From: Shewanella sp. MTB7
GTDB taxonomy: Bacteria; Pseudomonadota; Gammaproteobacteria; Enterobacterales; Shewanellaceae
Reading direction: 5' to 3'
Assembly: GCF_027571385.1 (NCBI RefSeq)
Contig: NZ_CP085636.1
Coordinates: 1,984,001 to 2,048,000 of the forward strand
DNA: 64,000 nt
Shown: positions 3,763 through 44,890 of the stretch, piece by piece
Position numbering within the stretch: position 1 is the first letter of the stretch
Layout of the letters: each line of letters opens with the position of its first letter
Position numbers and translations under genes: made by a program
Notes under the pieces: model-generated
The model's input: only the letters and a program-made list of their open reading frames with translations
What the model was told of the DNA's origin: nothing
Database searches by the model: none

Positions 3763-4995
3763 ATGACAGCAACCACTTATCAACCTGGAGAGATCCGTGG
3801 GTTGATTGAAATTGATGCATCAAAGTGTAAAGGCTGCGATGCTTGTCAAAAATTTTGCCCGACTAACGCGATAGAAGGCTCGTCGGGAGCTCCACACAGC
3901 ATAAATATCGAAAAATGCTTAAGTTGTGGACAATGTTTAATCAACTGCCCATTTAGTGCGATAAAAGAAACTCACAGTGCGCTAGATGATGTAATTAAAA
4001 AGCTCCATGATAATAACACCACTGTGGTGGGTATCATTGCCCCTGCGGTCAGAGTAGCCATTGGTGAAGAGTTTGGTCTTGGCACTGGAGAACTAGTGAC
4101 GGGTAAACTGTATGGTGCAATGAACAAAGCAGGTTTCAAAATTTTTGACTGCAACTTTGCTGCTGACTTGACCATTATGGAAGAGGGTAGTGAGTTTATT
4201 CATCGTCTGCATGCCAATGTTAAAGGCGAACCTAATGCAGGAGCCTTACCGCAGTTTACCTCTTGCTGTCCAGGCTGGGTTCGTTATGTGGAAACTCGTT
4301 ATCCTAATCTGTTACCAAACTTATCTACAGCCAAGTCGCCACAGCAGATGGCAGGCACAGTCGCTAAAACTTATGGTGCTAAGGTTTATGACATGCAACC
4401 GGAGAAAATTTTCACCGTCGCTGTTATGCCATGTACCTCGAAAAAGCTAGAAGCCTCACGCCCAGAGTTCAACTCAGCGTGGCAATATCACCAAGAGCAA
4501 GGTGCTAATCTCCCATCATATCAGGATATTGATGCGGTATTGACGACCCGTGAAATGGCTGAACTGCTGAAAGTTCTGGATATCGATCTGGCCACCACTC
4601 CAGCATTTGAAGGCGACAGTTTGTTTTCTGAATATACTGGCGCTGGTACCATTTTTGGCACCACTGGTGGTGTCATGGAAGCGGCTTTACGTACCGCTCA
4701 TAAGGTGTTGACTGGCAACGAAATGGCCAAGTTGGAATTCAACCCTGTTCGCGGCCTTGAGGGGGTGAAAACAGCCTCGGTCACTTTGCATGACACGGAA
4801 CTAAGTCAAGATGTCACCATTAACGTGGCCGTTGTTCACGATATGGGCAATAACATCGAACCGATTTTGCGTGACATTATGGCCGGTACCTCCCCTTATC
4901 ATTTCATCGAAGTCATGAATTGTGCCGGTGGTTGTGTGAACGGTGGCGGCCAACCAATTGACGGTAGTGGTTCATCATGGCTTGGTAATATCTAA
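3763..4995 (+). CDS. hydA: Periplasmic [FeFe] hydrogenase large subunit
   Basis: The 410-residue protein catalyses reversible H2 oxidation / proton reduction. Two ferredoxin-type CxxCxxCxxxC clusters lie near the N-terminus (CKGCDACQKFC and CLSCGQCLINC). All three H-cluster signatures are present: TSCCPGW (about residue 166), MPCTSKKLEASRPE (about 222) and MNCAGGCVNGGGQP (about 385). It has no signal peptide. The following small subunit carries a Tat signal, as in Desulfovibrio-type heterodimeric enzymes, so the dimer is probably exported together. First gene of an operon that also contains the complete hydEFG maturation set. Confidence 0.97.
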   Translation: MTATTYQPGEIRGLIEIDASKCKGCDACQKFCPTNAIEGSSGAPHSINIEKCLSCGQCLINCPFSAIKETHSALDDVIKKLHDNNTTVVGIIAPAVRVAIGEEFGLGTGELVTGKLYGAMNKAGFKIFDCNFAADLTIMEEGSEFIHRLHANVKGEPNAGALPQFTSCCPGWVRYVETRYPNLLPNLSTAKSPQQMAGTVAKTYGAKVYDMQPEKIFTVAVMPCTSKKLEASRPEFNSAWQYHQEQGANLPSYQDIDAVLTTREMAELLKVLDIDLATTPAFEGDSLFSEYTGAGTIFGTTGGVMEAALRTAHKVLTGNEMAKLEFNPVRGLEGVKTASVTLHDTELSQDVTINVAVVHDMGNNIEPILRDIMAGTSPYHFIEVMNCAGGCVNGGGQPIDGSGSSWLGNI

Positions 4996-13536: not shown

Positions 13537-13545
13537 CTTAGTAAT

Positions 13546-13562
13546 TGGTGGAGGCGGCGGGG
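13546..13562 (-). other. Putative attachment site: 3' end of ssrA (tmRNA)
   Basis: Read on the minus strand this is CCCCGCCGCCTCCACCA. It matches what I recall as the 3' end of Shewanella tmRNA: the acceptor strand CGCCTCC pairs with 5' GGGGGCG, followed by ACCA. The rest of tmRNA is absent, because the adjoining sequence is unrelated. This is the pattern left by integration into the ssrA 3' end, with the intact gene restored at the far end of the insert. The partner site was not found in the window. Confidence 0.6.
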
Positions 13563-13853
13563 CTCTGGCTTCTGTCTTATGGTATTGTTTTGATTGACAT
13601 TTAACATTCCCACTCTCTTTTGGTGTTACTTTAGGTGTTACATTTGTTCGATGGCGCAAACACTATTTGTGTAACCAACCCAAATTATTTTCCTAAATGA
13701 GGAAGTAGTGCTCTGGGATGTATATTTTATTTCGTTTTAAAACGTCAAATAAAGTATTTTGGTTGAAAAGTGAATGAGTCTAAAATATAAGTAAGTATTT
13801 CGATCATCCCATCTCGCTCTAGGGAGATTCTATCTTGAAATATTCTAATAAAT
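13563..13853. other. Left end of accessory region, no gene seen
   Basis: The stretch between the att-like fragment and the WYL regulator has no convincing frame. It holds short repeats such as TTTTGGTGTTACTTTAGGTG, which could be recombinase arm sites; that is a guess. Confidence 0.4.
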
Positions 13854-14711
13854 TCATGACAAGTAAAGATCTTGAGCAGAGTATGCTGTCAATTGGTGAA
13901 CTTTGGGTTGATCTTTCAGTAATTGTTCATCCAGAGTAACGCCCATGCGGCGTAGATAATAATGCAGCAAAGCCTTACGAGTAGTGATTGTTAGCTTACG
14001 ATAATCCATCGCATAGTCTTCTGCAACGACACATTGTTGTTTATCCGAAAGGTTAGGGTTAGGTATAATATTTACCGAAACTTGATTGTTCCAGTTATCA
14101 TCATGTTCCCGCGTATTGGGGGATCTATCCATTAAGTCAGGTTCGTTTCTGAAGCGACTAAGCACGAAGTCGCGGAAAGCTGTTTTTTCTTCACAATAGG
14201 CCCTCACATGCCATCTAATACCGTCATAGACGAGACTATGAGGGGCGATTATTCGTCCTCGGATTTCAGGTGTAGAGAGCGAAACGTAATCGATATCTAT
14301 GCGAAGGTTTGCTCTTGCTGCAGCAATTAACCCGCGAACGATTTTCGAAGAAACGACCCTGTCAGGAACATTTAATACTGTTGACTGGGCTTCTCCCCAA
14401 CTGAAGAATTCGAATGTTTCTTCGTGGTTGTACTGCTGATGAAGCATTGTCAGGTATTCATGAGCAGTGCCTTCAGTAAAGAAAGGTTTAAAATCATCAG
14501 CTGGTCTATAGCCTTTAATAGTCCTATCTAGTACTAACTGTTCTCGATCAGTAAGGCTTAGGTATTTGTTGATATCCCTTGAAGCCTGTTGGCGTCCTAT
14601 ACGAAAAGCATCGCATAGGTGGTTTGTCGTAAGGCGTCCTTCCCACTGAGCGATGATTTCGATTAGTCGAAATCTCACTTGCTGATCCCACTTGATATCT
14701 TTCTGATTCAT
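13854..14711 (-). CDS. BrxR/CapW-like WYL-domain transcriptional regulator
   Basis: 285 residues. The N-terminal 80 form a winged helix (LIEIIAQWEGRLTTNHLCDA, IGRQQASRDINKYLSL). The middle is a WYL domain (RIDIDYVSLSTPEIRGRII, HSLVYDGIRWHVRAYCEE, FVLSRF), followed by a C-terminal WCX-like segment. This layout is that of BrxR/CapW regulators, which sit beside phage-defence operons and repress them. It is divergent from the condensin-like operon with a shared 227-bp control region that holds a matching palindrome. Confidence 0.85.
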   Translation of the reverse strand: MNQKDIKWDQQVRFRLIEIIAQWEGRLTTNHLCDAFRIGRQQASRDINKYLSLTDREQLVLDRTIKGYRPADDFKPFFTEGTAHEYLTMLHQQYNHEETFEFFSWGEAQSTVLNVPDRVVSSKIVRGLIAAARANLRIDIDYVSLSTPEIRGRIIAPHSLVYDGIRWHVRAYCEEKTAFRDFVLSRFRNEPDLMDRSPNTREHDDNWNNQVSVNIIPNPNLSDKQQCVVAEDYAMDYRKLTITTRKALLHYYLRRMGVTLDEQLLKDQPKVHQLTAYSAQDLYLS

Positions 14712-14740
14712 AGCTGATGCTCAAAAATGTTACATGTTTA

Positions 14741-14765
14741 TGTATACAGTATATACATGTATACA
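14741..14765. promoter_or_regulatory. Candidate operator for the WYL regulator
   Basis: TGTATAC-N11-GTATACA, an inverted repeat just upstream of the regulator start and between it and the divergent condensin-like operon. BrxR-type regulators bind inverted repeats in such positions, so autoregulation and control of the operon are plausible. Confidence 0.45.
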
Positions 14766-14938
14766 CAAAGTACATATATTAACGGTGGAAATTGACCAAT
14801 CATTTTTCGAATATGGAAGTATAGATGAGACATAGTTATCAATAGCTTTACGGATAGCAACCCGATTTAGCTTCCATTAGACCCTAATTATTCTGGTAAG
14901 ATTTCAACCAGGAAAATAATATAAATAGAGAAAAAACA

Positions 14939-17900
14939 ATGATGTATGCTGGATTGAAAAGAGTCGTCACAATAAACTCATACCAGAAAAAAAAGATGTT
15001 TTCAGAGTATGATTTCGATTCAGCTACTCAGTTAACAGGTGATAACGGCGCTGGTAAAACATCATTACTGAGGCTTATTCCTTTCTTCTATGGTGCCACA
15101 GGGACTCAGATTGTTAGGAAGTCTAACGTTAATAAGCCATTCGCTGAGTGGTATTTACCCAATAACAACAGCTACCTTGTTTTTGAGTTTACAACCGCAC
15201 GTGGTCAAACTGCTCATGTAATCTGTTGCCGCAACCTAAGCACGAAAGGCGGTATTATGTACCAGTTCGTCAAAGGTGAGTTTGACCAATCCGTGATAAT
15301 CAAACAAGACCACGAAGAAAAGCCATACGCCATTGCCTGTACCAAATTGGCTGCTGAACTGACAGGTAAAGGTTTCGATTACGAATCTCGTATCACTAGT
15401 GTTAAAGAGTACCGCGAAATCATCCAAAACATTAATGCTGGTACTCGAAACAACAAATTCCTTAGTTACTCTCTGTGTTCTGGCCGTAATGACGTTCGCC
15501 ACATCGAAAAAATCACCGCTGCATTGATTCAGGGGGAGTTTAACATGGTCGACACTAAGGCGCTTTTCCTTGATATTCTTGAGCAAGGTAATAGCAATCT
15601 TGAATTCGGTGTTGATGCTAATAAGATTGAACAATGGTGTGATGATTACAGCGGTCTAACAGCTTTCCTTGGCAAAAAAGATGCCTTTACAGAGGCTATT
15701 GCCAACAATAAACAGATTGCCTATCTAACTAGCCGACTAGCCAATGCTTTGTGGGTTATTCGTGAAGCATCTGACGAGCTTGCTGAGTCACTTTCAAAAG
15801 CGCATCGTGAGCGAGCAGAATACATCGAGACTAGTAACAAACAGATTGAAGACGTCAACACCCAAAAACTCGACAAAGAGATCAGCCACAACTCACTTCA
15901 AAACGGCATCCGTAGCCTTGATTCTGAAATTGAAGCACACCACCTAGTGCTGTTGAAATATGAAGATAACGATTACCCAGAGCTATCCATCAAACTTAAA
16001 CAGCTTCCTGATATGGAAGACAAGTTAGCTTATCAAAGAGATAGTTACGTAGAGCTTGAAGTTAAGGTGATTGACGCAAAAGACAAGCGCGATCGTGATT
16101 TTCAAAACCTTGAAAGCAAGTTCAATAATGAAAAGTCCAAGCTCACAGATCTAAAGCTAAAAGCCCAACAAGAGACCAAAGCGAAACAGGCTAAAGTAGA
16201 TGAGACTTTTCAGCAGCAGTTAAACGAACTGACTAAGCAGCACAACAGCTTCACCAAAGATAAAGTTACTGTGCTCACAGAGTGTAAGGCTAAACTGGCC
16301 ACTCAAGAACAGCGCCTGAAGAACCCTGATATTGATGAGCTTCTTATCGAGCAGCGCGAGCGGCTTGAATCAGAAAAAGACAAACTTCAAGACCAAGCCA
16401 ATGAATTCAATAGAGCTGTCAACTTGGCTGAAAAAGAAGACGGTAAACTACATAAAAAACGTGAAAATCTGCTTTCTGATTTAGAGATAGCCTGTAACAA
16501 TAAGCGTAATGCTGAAGAAAAATTGAAGCTGGTTAACGCTCGACTTGACCCTGAGTCCGGGACACTGTTTTCGTTCCTTGAGAACCACAAGGAGGGGTGG
16601 CAAAGCTCTCCACTCGGTAGCATTCTCACAGAAAACCTTTTGATGGATACCACACTTGCGCCATCGATGACCGAAGATTCTGGCAGCTTGTTTGATTTGA
16701 GCATCGACACGAGCAATTTACCTGACTGCACGGTGACTAACCAATCGGATGTCGAGGAGCAAGCCAATTTAATGGACTTTATCGATACGCTTGAGGACTC
16801 TGAGGCAGATCTGAACAAGCAGATCAAGAAAAACGATGGCGCCATTAAAGACTCAAAGATTGAATTATCACGAATTCGCAGTGAACTTCGAAACACAGAT
16901 AACGACTTAGCTCAAACTAAGAGCAACCTTGATAATAAAAAAATTGAGATTGCCCGAGCTAAGGAGACTCTGATTGAGCAAGTTAGCTCAAGCATTAAAT
17001 CGATCCGCCTAAGTATCTCTTTAATTAAAAAAGAGATATTAGAGTCAGAGGAGCGCTTTGAAGAAGCTAGAACGAAGCTGAATGATGATAGGCTTACTCA
17101 GAACGGCAATATCGAAACCGCGCTCGCAATCAGTATCGATACCATCGACAAAACGATAAAAAAGAACCATCAGGTGCTAGGTGAGAACAAAGAACGCATC
17201 AACATGGAGTACGAACAGCGTCTAAGCGAACAAGGTATTTCCTGTGAAATCTACCAGCGCTACAAGGAAGAGATTGAGCAGCTTGACGACGAGATCAAGA
17301 ACCTAAAAGCGAAGTCTCAGATAATTAATGCATATGAGACTTGGTTGTCTATCTATGAAATTGACGATCCGAAGCGTCGCCAATCGCGCAACGACAAGCA
17401 AAAAGAGCTTGAATCGGTTAATCATGAAATCAAGTCATTTGAAACCAAGCTAAGAGAGCTACGAAGCGAAGATCACCGTATCAGGCAACAGTTCAAAGAA
17501 ACCACCGATACATTGGAGAAGCGTAAGAGTCGTGCTGATAGTGCCATCTATCGCCTATCCAATTACGAAGCGTTTGAGAGCCAAGAAGAAATTGAAGAGG
17601 GCTTTAGTTATAGCGGAGACTTAAACTCACTGCTTAATGAGGTTGAGAGCAAGCTACCTGAACTAGAGAAGCTATCGAAGAAGCGCAAGAAAGACATTCA
17701 GCTGATGGAGGCCATCACGCTTAGCCTTGGTGACGGGGAACTTTACCGTTTCTGGAATGAAACCAGTCGAAACACCATTAGTGAAGATATTGTTGCTAGC
17801 GACTCTAAGCGCATAGACATCCTTGAGAAAATAATGAATGACATCATCCCACAGGTGATGAGAATAACAATTGATAGTGCCGTCAACATGGGTCGCATGT

Positions 17901-18601
17901 TAGTAGACTTCAAGGACCGACTACTTAGCTTTGACCGCGACATTAAGAAACTCGGTCGAAATGTTTCTGAAAAAGTAAAGGCAAACAACACTTTCTCGGT
18001 GGTAGGTTCTATTGATATCAACGTTGAGAGTTCGCTCTCCAAGCTACAAGGCTGGCAAGACATCATTAACTTCTCTGAGATTTACGAAGACTGGGACCGA
18101 ACAGGGGCTGCTGAACTGCCGACTAAAGAGTTCTACAACGCCCTAGATACACTGACTTACCATATCAGTGCCGACAAGCTGAAGAAGCCAACCGAGCTCT
18201 TTGACATCAAATTCGAAGTGATTGAAAACAACCAGCGTAAGATCGCTAAAACAGATAAAGATATGCGCGACTTGGCCAGTAACGGCACCAACTTGCTTAT
18301 CCAATCCATGTTGTATCTTGCACTACTCACGCAGCAACGCGGGGCAAGCCTGCTGTCAATCACTTACCCAACCGATGAGATTGGTAAGTTGACCGCGGAG
18401 AACCAAGCGAAGCTACTCAAGATGATGGATGCTCACAACTTCAAGGTTGTAGCCGCTCAACCTGATGGCAACAACCGTACAGCCAACCTGTTTAAGAATC
18501 TGTACCACATAACGCCTGACAAGAACATTTTCAACAAACCTAAGGTAAGCAAGCTTGCCTTAGCAAAAGTAGCTGAAGCGACCGTAGGAGAAGAAGCATG
18601 A
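14939..18601 (+). CDS. SMC/MukB-like ATPase of a Wadjet-like system (JetC/MksB role)
   Basis: 1220 residues. Walker A GDNGAGKT lies at residues 34-41. Two long coiled-coil arms (about 270-540 and 620-900) flank a central hinge-like region rich in Ser, Asp and Leu. The C-terminal head has a signature-like ASNGTNLLIQSMLYLALL and a Walker B region with D1146-E1147 (SITYPTDEIGKL). This is the architecture of condensin ATPases used for loop extrusion. The signature differs from the classical SGGQ. Overlap by 4 nt (ATGA) with the next gene and three further coupled genes, the last a toprim protein, point to a divergent Jet/MksBEFG system rather than a DNA repair ATPase. Confidence 0.85.
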   Translation: MMYAGLKRVVTINSYQKKKMFSEYDFDSATQLTGDNGAGKTSLLRLIPFFYGATGTQIVRKSNVNKPFAEWYLPNNNSYLVFEFTTARGQTAHVICCRNLSTKGGIMYQFVKGEFDQSVIIKQDHEEKPYAIACTKLAAELTGKGFDYESRITSVKEYREIIQNINAGTRNNKFLSYSLCSGRNDVRHIEKITAALIQGEFNMVDTKALFLDILEQGNSNLEFGVDANKIEQWCDDYSGLTAFLGKKDAFTEAIANNKQIAYLTSRLANALWVIREASDELAESLSKAHRERAEYIETSNKQIEDVNTQKLDKEISHNSLQNGIRSLDSEIEAHHLVLLKYEDNDYPELSIKLKQLPDMEDKLAYQRDSYVELEVKVIDAKDKRDRDFQNLESKFNNEKSKLTDLKLKAQQETKAKQAKVDETFQQQLNELTKQHNSFTKDKVTVLTECKAKLATQEQRLKNPDIDELLIEQRERLESEKDKLQDQANEFNRAVNLAEKEDGKLHKKRENLLSDLEIACNNKRNAEEKLKLVNARLDPESGTLFSFLENHKEGWQSSPLGSILTENLLMDTTLAPSMTEDSGSLFDLSIDTSNLPDCTVTNQSDVEEQANLMDFIDTLEDSEADLNKQIKKNDGAIKDSKIELSRIRSELRNTDNDLAQTKSNLDNKKIEIARAKETLIEQVSSSIKSIRLSISLIKKEILESEERFEEARTKLNDDRLTQNGNIETALAISIDTIDKTIKKNHQVLGENKERINMEYEQRLSEQGISCEIYQRYKEEIEQLDDEIKNLKAKSQIINAYETWLSIYEIDDPKRRQSRNDKQKELESVNHEIKSFETKLRELRSEDHRIRQQFKETTDTLEKRKSRADSAIYRLSNYEAFESQEEIEEGFSYSGDLNSLLNEVESKLPELEKLSKKRKKDIQLMEAITLSLGDGELYRFWNETSRNTISEDIVASDSKRIDILEKIMNDIIPQVMRITIDSAVNMGRMLVDFKDRLLSFDRDIKKLGRNVSEKVKANNTFSVVGSIDINVESSLSKLQGWQDIINFSEIYEDWDRTGAAELPTKEFYNALDTLTYHISADKLKKPTELFDIKFEVIENNQRKIAKTDKDMRDLASNGTNLLIQSMLYLALLTQQRGASLLSITYPTDEIGKLTAENQAKLLKMMDAHNFKVVAAQPDGNNRTANLFKNLYHITPDKNIFNKPKVSKLALAKVAEATVGEEA

Positions 18602-19236
18602 AGCGAGTATCACAAGTCTTAGAGTCTTTACTGAGTGGTAGTTTCATCTGTCCAGCGACCGATCGCGAAGCCTACAAGACCATTAAAGACGACCGTACGC
18701 GCCGTGAAATCAATCAAGCCTTGACCCTTATGGGGCGAGAGCTTCAATGCACGAGCCGAACCAGCGCCTATTATGTTACTCACAAGGCAATCGACGACCA
18801 CAATCGCCGTCAGGTAACAACTTTGATGAGTAACGTACACGGTATCATTAGACCTGTAGTTAAGTTCATTGCAACAGTCAGTGAAGCGGCTCAAGTGGAA
18901 ACTGTGATGATCGGTGGTGATGAGTTAAACGTACCTGTGCTTGCTGTGCAAATCCAATCATCACCAAGCTTAATGGAGAAGCTCGATAGCATTTACCGAC
19001 TCCCAAAAGTTAGCCGCAAGAAGGTTCGTGAGACAGCCAGCGAAAAACTTGATGTAGTAGTCGAATTTTTGGTTAAAGAGGGGATTGCGCATCTAGTAAA
19101 TAAAGAACGCCAACTTTATGTGATGACAGGCAAATTAGACTTTGTGTACGAGCTGCTCGACTTCATCGATACGCATGAGAAGATTGTTGAGACCGTCAAT
19201 AAAGCGAACGAGGAACAAGGGGAGTTCGACTTGTGA
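18598..19236 (+). CDS. MukE/JetB-like subunit
   Basis: 212 residues, predicted soluble and mixed helix-strand with a wing-like C-terminal part (SEKLDVVVEFLVKEGIAHLVNKERQLYVMTGKLDFVY). Size and position fit the MukE/MksE/JetB component that bridges the kleisin and the ATPase heads. The identification is from context; I see no diagnostic motif. It overlaps both neighbours by 4 nt. Confidence 0.65.
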   Translation: MKRVSQVLESLLSGSFICPATDREAYKTIKDDRTRREINQALTLMGRELQCTSRTSAYYVTHKAIDDHNRRQVTTLMSNVHGIIRPVVKFIATVSEAAQVETVMIGGDELNVPVLAVQIQSSPSLMEKLDSIYRLPKVSRKKVRETASEKLDVVVEFLVKEGIAHLVNKERQLYVMTGKLDFVYELLDFIDTHEKIVETVNKANEEQGEFDL

Positions 19237-20531
19237 TTAGTTCTCAAAGCAACGGCAAACATGGTGGCGTCGGCCATATGCTTCTATTAATAAGCCAAGC
19301 AAAGAACACCCTGACTCAGGTCTTTGAGAATGGCACGATCCGCGAAACTCATGAGAACGCCAACGACCTGCGCAAGCTAAAAGAAGCCCGTGTTGTTATC
19401 GTTACAAGCCGCGGCTACCGTGTTCACCCGAAGATGGAGGCGCTGATGAACTACTTCCTTGAGACAGAAGCAAGTTGGTTCCTTGGAACCCAGCACGCAG
19501 AGCGTATTCCAGAAATACAAGATCTAGTCCAAGAATACCTAGAAGCCAAACTTAATGGCAAAAGGGAGCAAGAAGCCGATCGGTTCAACAATCTTGAGGG
19601 TGTGGCCTATGAAATTACGTTGGACTTACAAGAATCCTGTCGACGTCTACGCAACCGTATCAGTTATGACTTTGGTTACGGCAATACACTTGTTCAGAAG
19701 CACAAAGAGAACCAAGTCGCTATAGAACAGGCTGAAAAGCTCGTTAGCGGCATGAAAGCTTTCTCGTTTAAGCTACTAAGCGACATGGCAGGGGACAACT
19801 CTGAGCTAAACACATTGTTCTGTGTTGAAATGCATCATGCTATTCGTAGCTGTCAGCAAGAGCTTGGTTCTATCCTAATCCAACTTCGCGCCCTCATGAT
19901 GAGGTATCGTAACCGAGAGCGTGATAAAGACCTTATCAATGCTTTTGACCGATTCATAGACGAAGAGCCACACTGGACCCCAGATGAAGAAGTGATTTTG
20001 CCCGATGGAATGGCAAAGCATGGAGGCATACCTGAATTCTGGCTATCTGAACCGATTGAGTTTGCACATCATCCAAACCCTGATGACATGGACCAGGAGC
20101 CTGAGTTGGCCGACATTGTCGAGAAAATTACGGTACAACCAGTCGAGCAAGAAGATCAACCAGTTATAGTAGAAGCCGAACGTCGAGAGTTTACACTCGA
20201 TGTTGAGATACAAGAGCTTATCGAAGCTGATATCGATTCCCACTGCGATACTTTTTTTACTAAAGCCTTTATGACTCAGGGGAAATCAAAGGTTTCTGCA
20301 CTGGATTACTATGAGCATATCCATGATGAACGACCTGAAGATCTTGAGCCACTTACTTGCGCCAAAGATGTATGGTTGTTCAGCCTACTTAACTACCATA
20401 GTTCAATGCTCCCCCAAGATCGTAAAGACTTTGTTATTGAGCCTATTGGGACGCATACCTATTATGCTGAGGGCAGCAAAATAGGCTATGGTAACCTTCA
20501 CCTAGAAGATGTATCTATATCGAGGAAATAG
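19233..20531 (+). CDS. MukF/JetA-like kleisin subunit
   Basis: 432 residues starting at a GTG that overlaps the upstream stop. The N-terminal 90 residues look like a winged helix (GHMLLLISQAKNTLTQVFEN, DLRKLKEARVVIVTSRGYRV). The middle is helical (RNRISYDFGYGNTLVQKHKENQ). An acidic region near residues 280-330 is followed by a C-terminal domain. This layout fits a bacterial kleisin of the MukF/MksF/JetA type. Function is inferred mainly from the operon. Confidence 0.65.
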   Translation: MISSQSNGKHGGVGHMLLLISQAKNTLTQVFENGTIRETHENANDLRKLKEARVVIVTSRGYRVHPKMEALMNYFLETEASWFLGTQHAERIPEIQDLVQEYLEAKLNGKREQEADRFNNLEGVAYEITLDLQESCRRLRNRISYDFGYGNTLVQKHKENQVAIEQAEKLVSGMKAFSFKLLSDMAGDNSELNTLFCVEMHHAIRSCQQELGSILIQLRALMMRYRNRERDKDLINAFDRFIDEEPHWTPDEEVILPDGMAKHGGIPEFWLSEPIEFAHHPNPDDMDQEPELADIVEKITVQPVEQEDQPVIVEAERREFTLDVEIQELIEADIDSHCDTFFTKAFMTQGKSKVSALDYYEHIHDERPEDLEPLTCAKDVWLFSLLNYHSSMLPQDRKDFVIEPIGTHTYYAEGSKIGYGNLHLEDVSISRK

Positions 20532-21379
20532 TGAGTAAGATTATTGAAAGTATTACGGGTGGAGATCTACCCCGACTAAAAAAAATCTTCGCTCCAGCCA
20601 AAATTCAACATGGGGCCTCCGTAGTTTTGTCGGGAATATTTAAGGTCTTTCACCAAGACTATGGTATGGGTAAAATTGCAGCTGGAAAATTGCAACTAAC
20701 ACCCAAAGATATACGCCAAGTCAGAAAGTTAATTAAAGAGCAGTCAGGATTTGATCTCTTAACTGATCCGATACCGAGTTCTCGAACAGAAATGGCTAAG
20801 TACTTCTCGAACGAGAAGTTAAGCAGCACTCCTGTCAAGGACAAGGTGATCAAAGTTTATGGAGTGTTGTCAACTAATATAAATGGTAAGAAATATGAAC
20901 TAGAAGACGGTATGAACATAGAAATCCCGCTTAACAGTCTAAGGAGTATCGAGCACAGTCAAATTGTGATTATTGAGAACTATGAGGCATTTGCGAAATT
21001 TAGAGCCGTTCAATCAGATTTAGATTCTAACCCACTTGTTATATACCGTGGAGATAAAGAGGTAAGTGTTATCTCAAAAGAGATTGCGTTAAGCTTTCCA
21101 AATATTGAGCTTGTTGCATGGTTTGACACTGACCCTTCAGGCATATCTTTTGCCTTAGCATCCGTGGCAAGCATGATGCTTGTGCCTGATTTATCAAGTG
21201 AAGCACTTTCTAGACACGGTAGAACCCAGCTTTTTGATGACCAATATGAGCTTTGGGAGCGAGCATCAGATAAAATCCCACCAGAATTAAAATTGACTAT
21301 GTCTGAAACAGGTAAGGGATTAACTCAAGAGTCCATAATTGGCAATAGTATTCCGCTGGTTTTACACCGTCTCAAATAG
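20531..21379 (+). CDS. Toprim-domain nuclease, JetD/MksG-like
   Basis: 282 residues, GTG start overlapping the upstream stop by 1 nt. The toprim catalytic pattern is clear in the C-terminal half: the conserved Glu in VIIENYEAF (E149) and the DxD motif in WFDTDPSG (D199, D201). The N-terminal 120 residues include a helical segment (KDIRQVRKLIKEQSGF) that could bind DNA. In Wadjet systems JetD cleaves plasmid DNA after loop extrusion by JetABC. This protein is shorter than the usual JetD, about 400 residues as I recall. Last gene of the operon. Confidence 0.8.
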   Translation: MSKIIESITGGDLPRLKKIFAPAKIQHGASVVLSGIFKVFHQDYGMGKIAAGKLQLTPKDIRQVRKLIKEQSGFDLLTDPIPSSRTEMAKYFSNEKLSSTPVKDKVIKVYGVLSTNINGKKYELEDGMNIEIPLNSLRSIEHSQIVIIENYEAFAKFRAVQSDLDSNPLVIYRGDKEVSVISKEIALSFPNIELVAWFDTDPSGISFALASVASMMLVPDLSSEALSRHGRTQLFDDQYELWERASDKIPPELKLTMSETGKGLTQESIIGNSIPLVLHRLK

Positions 21380-24115: not shown

Positions 24116-24742
24116 ATGTTTCAATTCGAGTCATATCATCAATTAAACACACCATCTCAATATCAGCATATCGACAGTTACTTATCCACTTTTGAGAGGG
24201 TACTTCAACAACAGTTTGCATGTAATAATCGCGTAACCTGTATAAGGTTAGATTTAAGGCTTCCTAATAATATCCACTATGAAGACCCAAAAGTAATCTC
24301 ACGTTTCATCGATGCATTTAAGGAGAGGCTTAGTGCTTGGAGGAACCACCGTATTAAGTTGGGTAAACATCCTCATCCACTTAGATTCGGGTATGTATGG
24401 GTTAGGGAGCGCAAAAAATCCCATAATTGGCATTATCATCTAGTATTATTTTTCAATAAAGATACATTTGCTCACCTAGGAACTTTCGACCTTAATCGAG
24501 ATAATATGTATTCACGTATTGTAGGGGCCTGGTCTAGCGCATTAGGCATGCTTGACATAGAAGTTAAGGCATCAGTTCATATCCCTCAGAATGCTGTTAG
24601 CTACCTAGATTTAAACTCAGCAGAGTTTTATGACCAGTTAAATCGCTTTTGGCAGCAGTATACCTATTTGGCAAAAGTGGCTACCAAAGATATAAATGAC
24701 GGTAACCGTAACATTGGTTATAGCCGAATAGTGTTCAATTAA
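24116..24742 (+). CDS. Inovirus Gp2 / YagK-YfjJ family protein
   Basis: 208 residues. The segment FGYVWVRERKKSHNWHYHLVLFFNKD is characteristic of the inovirus-type Gp2 / YagK-YfjJ family found in satellites and genomic islands. The H-x-H within it recalls the metal-binding HUH motif of rolling-circle replication proteins, and Tyr residues that could act as nucleophiles follow. A role in island replication is inferred. It ends 55 bp from the convergent integrase, with a shared hairpin between. Confidence 0.8.
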   Translation: MFQFESYHQLNTPSQYQHIDSYLSTFERVLQQQFACNNRVTCIRLDLRLPNNIHYEDPKVISRFIDAFKERLSAWRNHRIKLGKHPHPLRFGYVWVRERKKSHNWHYHLVLFFNKDTFAHLGTFDLNRDNMYSRIVGAWSSALGMLDIEVKASVHIPQNAVSYLDLNSAEFYDQLNRFWQQYTYLAKVATKDINDGNRNIGYSRIVFN

Positions 24743-24754
24743 ACAAAAAAGAAA

Positions 24755-24775
24755 GGAGGACGTTAAAGGTCCTCC
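24755..24775. terminator. Hairpin between convergent gp2-like gene and integrase
   Basis: Stem GGAGGAC / GTCCTCC with a 7-nt loop between two convergent stop codons; an A-run on the left provides Ts for the minus strand. Probably terminates the integrase transcript. Confidence 0.6.
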
Positions 24776-24796
24776 GATAACAAAAACAACAAGAGC

Positions 24797-25357
24797 TCAT
24801 ATCTCTAGGTTAATAAAGTCGTTATCAACATCCTCTTGCTCAATCCCTATGTACCTTAATGTCACGCCTTCAGAACCATGCCTGAGCATCTTCATTACTC
24901 TACCAATGTCTTTGGTCTTTTGATAAAGATGATAACCTCTTGTTTTGCGCATGGAGTGTGTGCCTAAGGCTACCTTTAGTTCTTCACCAACGATACGAAA
25001 GGCTTTGGTCACTGCGCGTCTTGTTAGTGGTTTAGCCTTAGAGTATTTGGCCTGGGGATTTCGATAAGATTGAAATAGGTAGATATGGTCGGGATGGTTT
25101 ACTTGAATATCCTGAATAGCTTTTATCACTTTTGCATTCAACTTGATATTGGCTAGCTTGCCAGTTTTAGTTTCTTGGATAACCAATCTATCTTGCTGAA
25201 GGTCGCTAAACTTGATGGATAGCAGATCAGAAATACGTAAAGCGAGGTTTAACCCTATGTTCCAAATATCTGCCATCTGCTTACTATATCGAACCTCAAG
25301 TAGGTGGCTAATGAGATTTATAGTGTCTAACTTCTTGATTGCTTGGACTTCTACCAT
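24797..25357 (-). CDS. Tyrosine recombinase consisting of the catalytic domain only
   Basis: 186 residues with the full catalytic set: Arg41 in ALRISDLLSI, a Lys in ETKTGK (about 65), H134 and R137 in THSMRKTRGYH, H160 in LRHGSEG and the nucleophile Y169 in TLRYIGI. The arm-binding and core-binding domains of typical phage integrases are missing. This small type is known from Fim-like invertases and some genomic islands. It is the only integrase seen in the accessory region, so it is the candidate for ssrA-targeted insertion. Confidence 0.9.
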   Translation of the reverse strand: MVEVQAIKKLDTINLISHLLEVRYSKQMADIWNIGLNLALRISDLLSIKFSDLQQDRLVIQETKTGKLANIKLNAKVIKAIQDIQVNHPDHIYLFQSYRNPQAKYSKAKPLTRRAVTKAFRIVGEELKVALGTHSMRKTRGYHLYQKTKDIGRVMKMLRHGSEGVTLRYIGIEQEDVDNDFINLEI

Positions 25358-25490
25358 GATAGATTCCTTTTTTGATGTATATCGTTTAATTGGGCCCCTA
25401 AGAGGCTCAGGGATAGCGGACCCCGCATGTAGCCTAGGTTTGCAGGTTCCCGTTTTGGTAAAACGGGAACCTAACGCATTGACTGCAGTA

Positions 25491-25904
25491 CTAATCTAAT
25501 TGGATGTAAACGGTATAAGCGCCCATCTCTTGATAAGCGATAAAATTTTCGCTAAACATCGAGACCAACTCTCGAGATTCTAGTTCACCAATCCAACCAC
25601 TGAACAAGCTATACACTTGCTTGGAGTTAAAGCAGATATCAATGTCCTTAACTAGCTCTGGATAGGGATGGCCGTGATAAGCAAAATCGGTGACGTACAC
25701 GAGTCGCCAAAGATCTTGCTGTTTCTCTAATCTCACCTCTACCGGATGATAGCCGCCGTTTTCGGCGCTGTAGTCGGGATCGCGAAAGTTCAGCATGATC
25801 GCATTAGCCTCTTTGGTCGCGAGGCTTTGAAGTTGTTGTTCAAGCAATTGATAGAATGCGCGAGACATTTTGGGTACTTGAGCTTTGTCGAGTTGAATAG
25901 ACAT
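25491..25904 (-). CDS. DUF2787-family protein
   Basis: 137 residues. The segments MLNFRDPDYSAENGGYHPVE, WRLVYVTDFAYHGHPYPELV and SGWIGELESRELVSMFSENF fit the DUF2787 family as I remember it, a family common in Vibrio and Shewanella genomic islands. Function unknown. It lies directly downstream of the CbeA-like gene on the same strand, where the CbtA toxin gene is usually found. Confidence 0.8.
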   Translation of the reverse strand: MSIQLDKAQVPKMSRAFYQLLEQQLQSLATKEANAIMLNFRDPDYSAENGGYHPVEVRLEKQQDLWRLVYVTDFAYHGHPYPELVKDIDICFNSKQVYSLFSGWIGELESRELVSMFSENFIAYQEMGAYTVYIQLD

Positions 25905-26080
25905 GAGTTATTCCTTAAAGAATTAGATAGTAAGGGGCTGCCACCAGCACAAGGCTTGGTGATATTGAAGCGGTTACGGATGTCGTTAAAGGGCTAGCAG
26001 TGTTGAATGTTTCCGCTAAAGTTAGCGTGCGATGACGAGTCTTGAGGGGGAGGGCCGTTGTCAGCGTAGCGTTGATTGCC

Positions 26081-26422
26081 TTAATGTTTAGCTGTGGTTG
26101 GATAGATCGCAATATAGAGATATCCGTGACTACCGAGTGTATCGGCCTCACAGGTAAAGCCAGCGTGCTGTAAGGTTATGCTGCGTTGCTGACGCGCATC
26201 GAGGTGACCCAGTGATACTTGGTTCTCAAGTTGCTTAATGATCTCTGAGAAGGCGTCGTTGAGTAGCTGACCTTGCTCTGGGGGAAAGCTGCCGACAAAG
26301 CCTGAGCGATCCCACAGGAAGTCTAAGCGACTGCCTTGCAGAATAAGCCGCGCACCAAATCGCGGCGTAATATTACGCTGTAAACCCCATTGATAGGGCA
26401 TAGATGATTGAATCGTTGTCAT
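26081..26422 (-). CDS. cbeA: CbeA/YeeU-like antitoxin
   Basis: 113 residues closely following the E. coli YeeU pattern: YQWGLQRNITPRFGARLI, LDFLWDRSGFVGSF, and the C-terminal GFTCEADTLGSHGYLYIAIY. In E. coli this antitoxin stabilises MreB and FtsZ polymers and opposes the CbtA (YeeV) toxin, a type IV toxin-antitoxin pair. No cbtA follows here; the next minus-strand gene is DUF2787. Confidence 0.9.
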   Translation of the reverse strand: MTTIQSSMPYQWGLQRNITPRFGARLILQGSRLDFLWDRSGFVGSFPPEQGQLLNDAFSEIIKQLENQVSLGHLDARQQRSITLQHAGFTCEADTLGSHGYLYIAIYPTTAKH

Positions 26423-26535
26423 GCTGAAACTCCTTTGAATATTTGCTTGAGTTGATGTGTTGCTGGTGGATGCAAGGTAACGCTATAGAACAACAGATAA
26501 GTGCTGATGGCAGCTATTTACTTAGAGTCATGCAC

Positions 26536-26887
26536 TTAGGTATGTGCGCTCCAATTGGGTTGCTGATTACTGCCATGGTTGTAATAGACACCGTTGATAG
26601 TGCGCTGCCAAACATCGGTAGGTTGACCGTGCTCATTGCAGGTACAGTGATAGCGGCAAAAACCAATCTCTTTTGGTAAATGCTCAACCAGATCCCTTGG
26701 AGAGACAAACAACAATGTCTTATGCAAGGTGGGGCTGGGTTTGATGATGGGTTGACCTGTTGTCTCACCTCTCTCATTAAGCGGTCTTGCAGATCAATTC
26801 AACCATTAATCTTCTACGCAAGTCTGGAAATGCGGCGCAGGCTTCTGCCACACAGGCTTGAGAAAAACTGTCAGTAAATTCAATCAT
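26536..26887 (-). pseudogene. Small frameshifted gene between radC-like and cbeA-like genes
   Basis: An ATG at 26887 with an AAGGAG ribosome site begins MIEFTDSFSQACVAEACAAF and stops after 37 codons. Another frame continues with HKTLLFVSPRDLVEHLPKEI and ends at 26536 with GVYYNHGSNQQPNW. Together they look like one gene of about 115 codons broken by a frameshift around 26780. Family not recognised. It occupies the place of small yeeT-like genes in E. coli islands. Confidence 0.5.
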
Positions 26888-26946
26888 GGTGTACTCCTTA
26901 TTGGTTTGGCAATCAGTTGATATTTGTCAGTGGTGAGTACGCCGCG

Positions 26947-27414
26947 CTATAGCAAGCCACGTTCAGCAAATGACACTGGTGTTTTACCTACCACGATATG
27001 ATCGAGTACTCGTACATCTATCAGCGCCAATGCATCCGTTAAACGTTTGGTGATCAATTTATCAGCTTGAGAGGGCTCTGCTTCACCGGATGGATGGTTG
27101 TGGGCAAAGATCACCGCAGCAGCATTAACGGCTAATACGGCTTTAACCACTTCTCTTGGGTACACATTTGCAGCGTCTATCGTGCCGTAAAACAGCTCAT
27201 TGAACTCAATGAGCTGATGCTGGTTATCAAGCATCATTACAGCGAAGACTTCCCGCTCATATCCACCTAGCTTGTAGGTTAGAAATTGCTTTGTTGCTTC
27301 AGGATTACAAAATGCGTCTTTATTGACATACCTCTCAGCAATGATATTTGCTGCGCTTGCCAATATTTCATCTGTGTTTGGTGGACAATGCTTTAATTGA
27401 CTATTTGTTTGCAT
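26947..27414 (-). CDS. RadC-like JAB/MPN-domain protein (YeeS type)
   Basis: 155 residues containing the JAMM metal motif [14 protein letters not shown], which fits the H-x-H-P-S-G-x7-D of RadC proteins. The helix-hairpin-helix N-terminal part of chromosomal RadC is absent, as in the short YeeS/YkfG proteins of islands. Biochemical role unresolved. It heads the yeeS-cbeA module and ends with the usual SFAERGLL. Confidence 0.92.
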
Positions 27415-41489: not shown

Positions 41490-43643
41490 TCAACTAATTG
41501 TTGCATCTCCTCCTGCGTAAAGACCTTTCCTTGATGCATCACCAGCACTCGCTTGGCTTGTTTTATGGTCTCTGGCCTCTGGCCTATGAGCAATAATTAC
41601 TCGAGTCATTTTCAAATGTTTTATCTGCTCACTGATTTTGGCTTCATTTTCAATGTCCAGATGACTGGTCGCTTCATCCATAAACAGTAAACTAGGTTGT
41701 TGGTACAGTGCTCTTGCCAACAAGAGTCGTTGAACTTGCCCACCTGAGAATTGACTGCCCATATCCCCCACAAGGGTGTTGTACCCCATGGTCATTTTAC
41801 TGATATCACCATCAATGGCTGCCACTTGAGCGCACTGTTGCATCCGCAGATAATTAGGCTCAGGGTCAAAAAAAGTCAGGTTATCCGCAATAGAGCCTGA
41901 TAATAGGGTGTCATCTTGCATCACTGCCGCAATTTGCTGGCGATACTGGGTTAAGCCGATTTGAGTAATATCTTGCCCATCAAGTAATATGCGCCCCTTA
42001 CTTGGCATGAGTAGGCCCAGCATCAATTTAACTAATGTCGTTTTTCCACAGCCAGACTCACCAACAATAGCGACCGACTCATTAGAATTAATGATAAATG
42101 ACACGTTATCAATGATATTAGGTTCATTCTCACCATAGTTGTAACTCACCCCCTCCATTCTGAGCTGACCTTTAACATGAGTTAAAAGCGTTAACCCTTC
42201 ACGATTGACTTCTTGTTTATGTAAAGCGATATCTGAGATACGATCTAAATGAAGCCGCAACATACGAAATAGAATTAACTGTTCAATTAGGCTCGCTACA
42301 CGCTCTGTTAACTGATTTTTATATGCAATAAAAGCTAACACCATGCCTATAGTAAGCCCACCACTCATTACCACCGTGGCAGCTAAGTAAATGACAATAA
42401 TATTCTCTAAACCAAATAAAAGTTTATTCATCGCATCAAAGCTGATGTTTAACTTACCTAGCCGAATATCTGCATTAATCACTTCACTGTATCGGTTTTG
42501 CCATAAACTCTGTCTTTGTGGCTCACAGGCAAATAGCTTTATGGTCTGAATACCGCGTATATTTTCAAGGAAATTAGTTTGTTCCTTCGCGTTGGCCTGT
42601 ATTGATTCTTCTGTCGCACGATGAAGAGGGCGATACAGTGCAAAACGCAGTAAAGCGTAAATAGCGATAGCGGCAACCACAACCAGAGTCAATTTAACGC
42701 TATAAATTAACATCATCACTAAAACGGCTATTGACATCACACCATCAACAACGGTTTCAACAAGCCCAGTGGTAAGTCTCTCTCGCACTTGAGCAAGGGA
42801 TCCAAAACGTGACACTAGAGCACCTATATGACGTTTTTCAAAATAACTCATCGGTAGTCTAAGTAAGTGCCGAAGCAAATTAACGCCCATTTGCATATTG
42901 AGTAAACTAGAAATCCTCAATACCAACCAACTACGTACCCCCGTTGTGACAACGTTGATGATGGCGAGTATGCTAAAGCCTAATGCCAATACGATAAGCA
43001 GTGGTTTATCTTGACTAATAAGGACTTCATCAACAACCCATTGCATGTAATAGGGGGTAACGAGTGCAAATACTTGTAATAGAACAGATAAAACAAATAG
43101 GGCTGATAGTGTTTTACCAATCCCCGTCATTTTGTTCCACAACTGCGATAAGTGCATCTGTTGGCGTTCATCTTTCTGTTCAAACGCTTTAGTGACGGTG
43201 AGCTCTAATGCGATCCCGGTAAAGTGTTGTGCAAAATCCTTAAAGGGTAATTTCTTTTTACCTAATGCGGGATCGTTAATGCTGGCTCCAGATTTAGTCA
43301 CTCCAGTAAGCACAACAAAATGATTCATGTCCCAGTGCAATACGCAAGGCAATGCAAGCCTTCCAACATCTTCGAGTGGGCATTTCAATGCGCGACTGGC
43401 TAATCCTAAGTTATCCGCAAGAGCGATTAACTGTTGTAAGCTCATCCCTTTTAAATCAGCAGTAAATCGTTTTCTAAGGGCAGCCATATCAAGTTTATGG
43501 CCGTGATAACTCGCGACCATAGCCACGCATGCAAGACCGCATTCAGCCATTTCAGCTTGTAAAATAAGTGGGACTCGTTTTTTACCTGAAAATTCTAATA
43601 ACTCTAAAGGATCGCTAGGTTGATTAAGTGAGGTATCGTTCAT
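41490..43643 (-). CDS. C39-peptidase ABC exporter (CvaB/LagD type), frameshifted near the end
   Basis: 717 residues as read. A C39 peptidase occupies residues about 25-150 (oxyanion Gln29, catalytic Cys35 in QAEMAECGLAC, His in MNHFVVLTGV, Asp in INDPALG), followed by a six-helix ABC membrane domain and an ATPase (Walker A GESGCGKTTL, signature FSGGQVQRLLLARA, Walker B LLFMDEATSHLD, H-loop IIAHRPE). After IIAHRPE the frame is wrong. The expected continuation ETIKQAKRVLVMHQGKVFTQ lies in another frame down to 41375. The cause is a 7-bp tandem duplication at 41571-41584. It trims leaders and exports the GG peptides. Start overlaps the HlyD gene stop. Confidence 0.9.
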   Translation of the reverse strand: MNDTSLNQPSDPLELLEFSGKKRVPLILQAEMAECGLACVAMVASYHGHKLDMAALRKRFTADLKGMSLQQLIALADNLGLASRALKCPLEDVGRLALPCVLHWDMNHFVVLTGVTKSGASINDPALGKKKLPFKDFAQHFTGIALELTVTKAFEQKDERQQMHLSQLWNKMTGIGKTLSALFVLSVLLQVFALVTPYYMQWVVDEVLISQDKPLLIVLALGFSILAIINVVTTGVRSWLVLRISSLLNMQMGVNLLRHLLRLPMSYFEKRHIGALVSRFGSLAQVRERLTTGLVETVVDGVMSIAVLVMMLIYSVKLTLVVVAAIAIYALLRFALYRPLHRATEESIQANAKEQTNFLENIRGIQTIKLFACEPQRQSLWQNRYSEVINADIRLGKLNISFDAMNKLLFGLENIIVIYLAATVVMSGGLTIGMVLAFIAYKNQLTERVASLIEQLILFRMLRLHLDRISDIALHKQEVNREGLTLLTHVKGQLRMEGVSYNYGENEPNIIDNVSFIINSNESVAIVGESGCGKTTLVKLMLGLLMPSKGRILLDGQDITQIGLTQYRQQIAAVMQDDTLLSGSIADNLTFFDPEPNYLRMQQCAQVAAIDGDISKMTMGYNTLVGDMGSQFSGGQVQRLLLARALYQQPSLLFMDEATSHLDIENEAKISEQIKHLKMTRVIIAHRPEARDHKTSQASAGDASRKGLYAGGDATIS
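41571..41584. repeat. 7-bp tandem duplication (TCTGGCC twice) in exporter gene
   Basis: TCTGGCC occurs twice back to back. Removing one copy restores the reading frame AHRPETIKQAKRVLV on the minus strand. Such a repeat can revert by slippage, so the defect may be reversible. Confidence 0.9.
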
Positions 43644-44890
43644 TAGCCAACTCGTCCTTGTAAGCTGTAAATAGGATCAAGTAACCTATCAAGTAAACTT
43701 CGTCTATCGAGTACGATATCAGCCTCAAGTAACATGCCACTTTTTAATGGGAATTGATCGCCATAAGCCAGCATACTTTGCATTGATAATAGTGTTCTTA
43801 TTCGATAAACAGGCTCTGACAATGTAACGGGGACACTTGCTTCGCCATCAAGTAACAAGGCTTTATCAATCCGAGATACACGGCTACTCAAAAAACCAAA
43901 GCGCTGATAAGGAAAGGCATCAAGTCGAAGCCTAGCTTCATCACCTGATTTAACAAAACCAGCACTACGAGAGGGTAAAAGCAACTCTGCCACCAATTGA
44001 GCCCCTTCAGGGATCAAGCTCATTAAGGGGCGATTAGTGACGATAAACTCACCCTCTACAACTTGAATTGAAGTGACAGTTCCTGCATCCGTTGCACGAA
44101 TAACATATCTATAGTTGTTTTCAGTTTCATTAATTTGACGCTGAAGTTCCGATCGTTGTCTTGCTCTATCACTGTCCTTAAGTGCATATTGGCTTGGTAA
44201 TAGCGTTAACGCGGCACGAGCAGTGTTGAGCTGGCTTTGTATTTGTACTTGATTCGATTTTAAGCTTTCAATTTCTTGTCTAATATTAATTAGTTTTTCT
44301 TGTTGGGTCTGATAATCAAGCGTGGATAAAAAGCCCTCGTTATAGAGTTTTTCATGTTGAGTTTGTTGTGAAAATTGAAGCTGTAACTTATCAACAAGCA
44401 ACATATCTAAATTGTCTAATACTGAAAGCGCAGCATAATGATCTGTTATTTCCATATTAAGGCGTTCAGTATCATTTGACTGCATGGTTTTATTAACAGC
44501 TTCTTCAGTATTGAGTAGCTTAAGCTGTTGGTTCAACTCATCCATTAAGGATTCTCTTAGCTCTTCTCCTGATAGCATGCTTCGTCTTAATACAATCGTT
44601 GCAAGAATAGCCCCCTCTTCAACGTTATCACCTTCAGAGACATGTAACTTTTCAATGTTTCCACTACGATCAGCATAAGTTTTAATCAATCCCTTATCTG
44701 GAACTAAATAACCACGGACGGTCTCTTTACGGGCGTAGTGAGAAAAAGAAAGGAATAGGACAATAACCACGATAATGATTAACAAAATGGAAGTTGAAAA
44801 ATAAATGGAGATAGGTTGCGCTAAAGAAATATCACCATGCAACTTTTGTTTCTGTGCATCAACAGCTTGTCGACGAAAGAATGCAGACAT
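43643..44890 (-). CDS. HlyD/CvaA-type membrane fusion protein
   Basis: 415 residues. One N-terminal membrane helix (ISIYFSTSILLIIIVVIVLF), a lipoyl/barrel segment (RGYLVPDKGLIKTYADRSGN), a long helical hairpin (about 105-235) and a C-terminal barrel (ATDAGTVTSIQVVEGEFI). This is the periplasmic adaptor linking the ABC exporter to a TolC-like outer membrane channel. Operon with the exporter (1-nt overlap); the TolC partner is not in the window. Confidence 0.93.
   Translation of the reverse strand: MSAFFRRQAVDAQKQKLHGDISLAQPISIYFSTSILLIIIVVIVLFLSFSHYARKETVRGYLVPDKGLIKTYADRSGNIEKLHVSEGDNVEEGAILATIVLRRSMLSGEELRESLMDELNQQLKLLNTEEAVNKTMQSNDTERLNMEITDHYAALSVLDNLDMLLVDKLQLQFSQQTQHEKLYNEGFLSTLDYQTQQEKLINIRQEIESLKSNQVQIQSQLNTARAALTLLPSQYALKDSDRARQRSELQRQINETENNYRYVIRATDAGTVTSIQVVEGEFIVTNRPLMSLIPEGAQLVAELLLPSRSAGFVKSGDEARLRLDAFPYQRFGFLSSRVSRIDKALLLDGEASVPVTLSEPVYRIRTLLSMQSMLAYGDQFPLKSGMLLEADIVLDRRSLLDRLLDPIYSLQGRVG

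Follow-up and report, generated by a model that had tools for sequence, protein, structure and literature searches.

What is a four-gene operon that joins an SMC-like ATPase to a short Toprim protein in an order other than that of Wadjet, and what might it do for the bacterium or the element that carries it? The question is raised by a 64-kb stretch of DNA (C1:1984001-2048000, hereafter the window) from the 6.37-Mb genome of Shewanella sp. MTB7, in which such an operon occupies positions 14939-21379 of the plus strand (positions without a prefix are those of the window). A preliminary description of this DNA had proposed a Wadjet-like operon in the order C-B-A-D, perhaps a distinct subtype. 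The present analysis showed that the order and the short putative nuclease are real; the idea of a lone oddity did not stand, because both traits are common to a whole family, of which the locus is a mobile member. By analogy with Wadjet, we consider it rather probable that the operon encodes an SMC-Toprim complex that would cut foreign DNA and so defend its host or its own element.

Gene content, homology and gene order

The five open reading frames (ORFs) matched those first described in coordinates, lengths and overlaps of 1-4 nt. A regulator gene (13854-14711, minus strand, 285 amino acids) diverges from the operon, in which the SMC-like ATPase (14939-18601, 1220 amino acids, JetC-like position C) is followed on the plus strand by a KITE-like subunit (18598-19236, 212 amino acids, position B), a kleisin-like subunit (19233-20531, 432 amino acids, position A) and the short Toprim protein, a putative nuclease (20531-21379, 282 amino acids, position D), with overlaps of 4, 4 and 1 nt in the ORF list. 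ORFs and Pfam matches together confirmed the C-B-A-D order at this locus. The ratio of non-synonymous to synonymous substitution rates (dN/dS) against an Enterobacter plasmid copy was 0.06-0.21 across the window genes, and the ORFs are therefore maintained genes and not chance frames.

The ATPase matched DUF3584 (PF12128) with 440 bits at a cut-off of 31. Both motifs claimed for it were present (Walker A, GDNGAGKT; Walker B, D1146-E1147), and residues G34, N36, G39, K40, T41, D1146 and E1147 were invariant in all 16 aligned SMC proteins. The signature region, previously called unusual, is indeed so: it reads SNG in the window protein and SSxG in most of the family members printed, as against SGGE, SGGQ or SGAE in seven JetC-type references. 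When the SMC profile was compared with references by hhalign, the values were 97% for JetC_I, 94% for JetC_II, 75% for SbcC, 26% for MukB, 21% for RecN and 5% for the host SMC; this ranking is indicative only, since the last four were entered as single sequences, and the 5% is unfair as a control, the host SMC being a 1074-amino-acid fragment whose N-terminal end was cut at the locus border. Within the limits of that comparison and its set of references, the window SMC appears closest to JetC. The preliminary description had named a placement among SbcC/RecN-type repair proteins as the outcome that would speak against it; JetC scored above both, and on these indicative values the repair-protein assignment was rejected.

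A quick tree of SMC proteins placed 76 family members on one side and nine references (seven JetC-type proteins, MukB and SbcC) on the other, with a Shimodaira-Hasegawa-like approximate likelihood ratio (SH-aLRT) support of 98, in a sample without type III, without bootstrap and with long branches. The row nearest to the window SMC was a Vibrio breoganii plasmid protein, 44% identical over the head columns. Against the Protein Data Bank (PDB), the single SMC sequence gave no match to SMC complexes, and sequence searches with profiles of the SMC, KITE and kleisin proteins gave none either. With PADLOC, the window SMC matched JetC3 at 0.38 and LmuB at 6.3e-5, the latter mostly over coiled coil; the top Jet match with PADLOC 2.0.0 among ten proteins of relatives was JetC3 at 1.2e-7, again over coiled coil. 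The MukB N-terminal family PF04310 had zero Pfam matches in the whole host genome, the operon included, and the host also encodes a canonical SMC.

The 282-amino-acid protein matched DUF7281 (PF23947) with 78 bits (cut-off 27), and JetD_C with 16.3 bits, below the cut-off of 22; no N-terminal JetD family was found in the Pfam scan. The catalytic residues proposed for it held up: none of E149, N150, D199 and D201 varied among the 25 aligned sequences. Compared by hhalign with JetD, its profile gave an E value of 1.6e-4 and a probability of 51%, with the EN and DxDP motifs aligned; control comparisons with other proteins gave E values of at least 0.47. The profile also matched Spo11, in an alignment that pairs the VIVE and DxDPxGI motifs, with E values of 0.0022 (sequence) and 0.032 (matched stretch). 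The single sequence had no match of note in the PDB. The profile's top PDB match was 2oeq (DUF964; E 5e-5, profile positions 12-107, the N-terminal part), which we leave uninterpreted. Taken together, the profile and motif evidence supports a Toprim protein of the JetD/Spo11 type that would act as a nuclease.

The claim of MukE- and MukF-like subunits was borne out in part. The 432-amino-acid protein had no match in Pfam, PADLOC or the PDB sequences; its predicted model aligned with MukBEF/MukEF chains over the winged-helix part and the bundle, the N-terminal part included, which supports a MukF-shaped, kleisin-like subunit as far as a predicted fold can. No JetA or MksF chain was among the structure matches listed for this model, a result that excludes neither. 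The MukE half of the claim is left with a marginal Pfam match of the 212-amino-acid protein to MksE (PF21980, 27.1 bits at a cut-off of 27), a weak PADLOC match to JetB1 (8.7e-6) and a negative hhalign result, taken up below.

To place the gene order, we turn to the relatives. Among 60 related genomes there were 23 DUF7281 places, of which 20 neighbourhoods were fetched (the three omitted were the window, another genome and a match below the cut-off). In all 20 the Toprim gene came last, after those for the SMC, KITE and kleisin proteins; in three, the Toprim ORF was recognised by its DUF7281 match only. Of five further DUF3584 loci across the class, three had all four genes, a fourth had SMC, kleisin and Toprim genes with the KITE frame masked by the overlap rule, and the fifth was without a Toprim gene. 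A search with the SMC profile gave 31 named loci; two were cut by contig ends and the other 29 read SMC-KITE-kleisin, with the Toprim gene present in 15 and absent in 14. JetC1-type loci, found in 11 of 249 genomes, were fetched in seven cases, and all seven read A-B-C, two of them with a D gene after (A, B and D were assigned by position and size). The C-B-A-D order is thus a trait of the family.

DUF3584 scored above the cut-off in 44 of the 60 relatives and in 7 of 274 genomes sampled across the class, a survey whose initial round took in no more than two candidates from each genome; the family is common near Shewanella and sparse beyond. One scan of viral contigs with the kleisin protein confirmed no relative, and phage records gave a single partial, weak match. 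No description of a DUF3584/DUF7281 or C-B-A-D system was found in titles and abstract openings, subscription papers that may name the family being out of reach, and the term DUF7281 was not found in the texts searched. Each part belongs to a known kind; what appears new to us is the lineage, with its order, its short nuclease and the series of gains and losses described below, and we make no claim of priority.

Resident operons and the detachable nuclease

Every one of the 36 Shewanella genomes had a resident DUF3584 SMC gene, and 17 had DUF7281. The SMC heads of two genomes of this group were identical to those of S. salipaludis and of an uncultured Shewanella. In the loci of all 19 DUF7281-free genomes, the three core genes (SMC, KITE and kleisin) have open frames. 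Nuclease genes hidden in these loci were considered and rejected: six-frame searches of all 19 showed no Toprim trace in 18 and one 42-amino-acid remnant, and searches of the 19 whole genomes for DUF7281 found none. The remnant lies behind intact SMC, KITE and kleisin genes (locus L165, 7675-7800) and apparently reflects a recent loss of the nuclease. On the SMC tree, the Toprim label changes nine times among family members, a count that is blind to gain versus loss.

The three core genes had dN/dS values of at most 0.083 in seven chosen nuclease-free pairs. In four armed (nuclease-bearing) pairs the values were 0.012-0.035 for the core genes and 0.118-0.200 for the Toprim gene; several of the synonymous rates exceeded 1 and five were infinite (printed as a ratio of 0), so that the order of magnitude alone counts.

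The host of the window operon itself has a second, resident C-B-A-D operon at C1 ~5060600-5067100 (L021, 8611-15084), whose SMC is ~22% identical to the window SMC. Next to it lies a transporter gene, which was present as well beside most Shewanella loci that were fetched. In different species this resident place is taken by one or the other of two distinctly unlike SMC types (L021, L030, L032 and L034 versus L024 and others), which looks like allele replacement.

Mobile copies, the regulator and the ssrA island

The window copy is a mobile, armed and regulated version of the system with relatives on conjugative plasmids. On an Enterobacter IncC plasmid the operon stands beside Tn7-like transposition genes and genes for nucleotidyltransferase, ThiF, Mov34 and SAVED proteins, and an insertion sequence interrupts its SMC gene. 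On a V. campbellii plasmid two of the genes, those for the SMC and the kleisin, are annotated in two pieces each; the V. breoganii plasmid operon is annotated as four whole genes. The named close relatives of the kleisin come from Vibrio species. The same four-gene layout, with Toprim and Walker motifs intact, was found on Acinetobacter (40 kb) and Marinobacter plasmids, annotated there as one ATP-binding and three hypothetical proteins. The Acinetobacter set (L178, 1073-7547) lies between insertion sequences. An Enterobacter IncHI2A plasmid carries only an N-terminal SMC fragment beside insertion sequences (L179, 6980-7669), and ten other plasmid records share its 196-residue match. A search of plasmids with a relative's Toprim protein gave no match, though the annotated plasmid operons hold one, which marks that search as too insensitive.

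Against the Enterobacter plasmid copy, dN/dS was 0.085 for the regulator, 0.062 for the KITE, 0.082 for the kleisin and 0.206 for the Toprim gene, and 0.171 for the first part of the SMC gene. In this mobile clade, purifying selection acts on each of the operon genes and on the regulator gene; the Toprim gene has the highest rate, as would be expected if it encodes an effector engaged in conflict.

The regulator had been described as of the BrxR/CapW type. The results agreed with this: phmmer matched it to BrxR (7t8k) at E 5.6e-55 over residues 9-260 and to CapW (7tb6) at E 2.8e-40 over residues 5-279, so that the homology takes in the winged helix, the WYL domain and the C-terminal part, and Pfam gave a WYL match of 44.4 bits. 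Between regulator and operon lies a palindromic stretch (14739-14776) of two overlapping 21-nt arms that are 76% complementary, a candidate operator. When the 231-nt intergenic region was used as a query, only 74 nt, the palindrome included, matched a plasmid record (Enterobacter, 87.8%), and on that plasmid the regulator adjoins the operon.

The placement on an island at ssrA was confirmed from outside the window. Scans of the 64 kb for tRNA, tmRNA and Rfam families gave no match; the intact tmRNA gene (ssrA) lies on the same contig at C1:2062190-2062544. The ssrA 3' end is repeated exactly over 21 bp: one copy, the left attachment repeat, lies at 13545-13565 and the other at C1:2062189-2062209, ~64.6 kb away. 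The left flank of a relative matches the window at 89% up to 13553, where the similarity ends. Counted from the end far from ssrA, the operon comes first among the cargo, ~290 bp inside the island. A 398-amino-acid ORF ends ~160 bp from the ssrA copy; judged by its sequence and not by a domain scan, it resembles a tyrosine integrase and is a candidate for one.

Some further features of the island were seen. In a relative (locus L136, ~4120-4180), a degraded stretch at the site where the window's island starts resembles an ssrA 3' end by eye. After the operon, 24116-27414 holds genes for a YagK/YfjJ-type protein, a 186-amino-acid integrase-like protein, DUF2787, a CbeA antitoxin and RadC, and parts of this segment recur at 65-83% identity in two other Shewanella genomes. 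An ABC transporter gene with a peptidase C39 domain and an adjacent 415-amino-acid ORF (41490-44890), inside the island, resemble a bacteriocin exporter pair.

Proposed function and relation to known systems

If the operon acts as a Wadjet-like defence system, the four proteins would form one complex in which an SMC dimer, the kleisin and the KITE subunit bind DNA. The SMC motor would translocate or loop DNA with ATP, as in Wadjet, and a Toprim dimer would cut once the motor met a signature of foreign DNA, perhaps circular DNA. According to PMC10586767, Wadjet extrudes loops and then cleaves circular DNA, with a range below 50-100 kb; a like principle seems most likely here. The BrxR-family repressor may hold expression low through the palindrome before the operon and be relieved on invasion. 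As cargo of the ssrA island, the operon would move between bacteria and protect its host, or the element that bears it, from competing DNA. The ssrA island, the conjugative plasmids, the Tn7-like genes, the SAVED and nucleotidyltransferase neighbours and the BrxR-family regulator support a role in defence. The likeness of the SMC profile to JetC, of the Toprim motifs to those of JetD and Spo11 and of the kleisin model to MukF-type chains also speaks for this reading, as do purifying selection in the mobile clade and the fast evolution of the Toprim gene.

Several observations weigh against this reading. By hhalign, nothing was found when the KITE profile was compared with JetB and MukE, or the kleisin profile with JetA and MukF, and the PADLOC 2.0.0 Jet models match weakly, with none for the window kleisin or Toprim protein. 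The regulator was not annotated near the operon on the V. campbellii and V. breoganii plasmids, two of three, and therefore looks like an optional partner. The intact four-gene set on the 40-kb plasmid argues against plain restriction of small plasmids and, as do the many nuclease-free relatives, against assuming plasmid restriction for the whole family. Finally, the nuclease-free relatives retain their SMC core under strong selection, so that the core may serve chiefly some purpose other than defence.

These nuclease-free cores, intact and strongly conserved, also fit another explanation, namely that the operon is a condensin-like organiser that folds or segregates the chromosome or its own mobile element, the Toprim protein being an accessory that resolves or trims DNA. 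It would fit a resident SMC gene that is present in all 36 genomes of the genus while the nuclease is in 17, and a host without MukB by Pfam. However, the window operon is an additional, mobile copy whose host possesses both a resident operon and a canonical SMC, its nuclease gene is intact, and both the BrxR-type control and the neighbours on the Enterobacter plasmid fit defence. We regard this explanation as rather unlikely.

A nuclease-armed SMC system might also be directed against phages or a specific DNA state instead of plasmids, with a different trigger and a mode of action that we would liken to that of Lamassu. Intact copies on plasmids, one of them of 40 kb, the BrxR-family regulator and the weak, mostly coiled-coil LmuB match of the SMC point this way; the KITE- and kleisin-like subunits and the JetD/Spo11-type Toprim protein are, however, parts of Wadjet, and such a target seems unlikely. 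That the operon is a plain Wadjet member of type I, II or III with rearranged genes is very improbable: the four kinds of parts are the same, the SMC profile scored highest with the two JetC types, and weak PADLOC matches to JetB1, JetC and JetD occur in family members, but even the top Jet matches are weak, the tree, in which type III was unsampled, separates the family from the references, and order and nuclease length differ.

Returning to the Wadjet-like defence system that we prefer for the window operon, we suggest tentatively, and with less than even confidence, a wider picture. DUF3584-DUF7281 would be a separate SMC lineage, its resident form a chromosome-organising condensin that becomes a weapon against foreign DNA when a fast-evolving Toprim protein is attached; the genus would hold a natural series of these states (SMC in 36 of 36 genomes, the nuclease in 17, one remnant), and the window operon would be the mobile, repressor-controlled form. 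As a single genus offers closely related armed and unarmed SMC cores, the transition that separates a chromosome organiser from a defence nuclease can be tested directly there. The system is matched weakly by PADLOC 2.0.0, and plasmid records label its genes 'ATP-binding protein' or 'hypothetical protein'.

Compared with known systems, the regulator resembles BrxR and CapW, which it matches over nearly its full length, and it stands divergent from the operon with a palindrome between; it differs in that its neighbour is an SMC-Toprim operon, and its DNA binding is predicted. According to PMC9122601, homologues of BrxR are found alongside Wadjet and further defence systems. With Lamassu the operon shares an SMC-like ATPase of mobile defence systems and the weak LmuB match, but it differs in its Toprim effector and in having subunits of KITE-like and kleisin-like type, and the LmuB similarity is mostly confined to coiled coil. 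The marginal MksE match and the MukF-like predicted fold recall MksBEF and MukBEF, and the nuclease-free relatives are three-subunit systems like MksBEF; here, by contrast, the SMC gene comes first, a Toprim gene is present, and the similarity of the SMC profile to the single MukB sequence is low. A gene order mksFEBG and an MksG nuclease are described in PMC10123090.

The nearest likeness is to Wadjet (JetABCD, MksBEFG), of which type I is the best described. As there, one operon combines an SMC ATPase with a Toprim protein of the Topo VI-A/Spo11 type and with two further subunits, here putatively KITE-like and kleisin-like. On sequence grounds, the window operon has a JetC-type ATPase with Walker A and B motifs and the catalytic Toprim motifs of JetD. 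It departs from Wadjet in its order, C-B-A-D instead of A-B-C-D, in the signature segment of its SMC, and in a Toprim protein of 282 amino acids as against 389 and 415 in two reference JetD proteins assigned by position. Because neither the gene order nor the recognition by the PADLOC 2.0.0 Jet models is that of Wadjet, we file the operon as a Wadjet-like variant and not as Wadjet.

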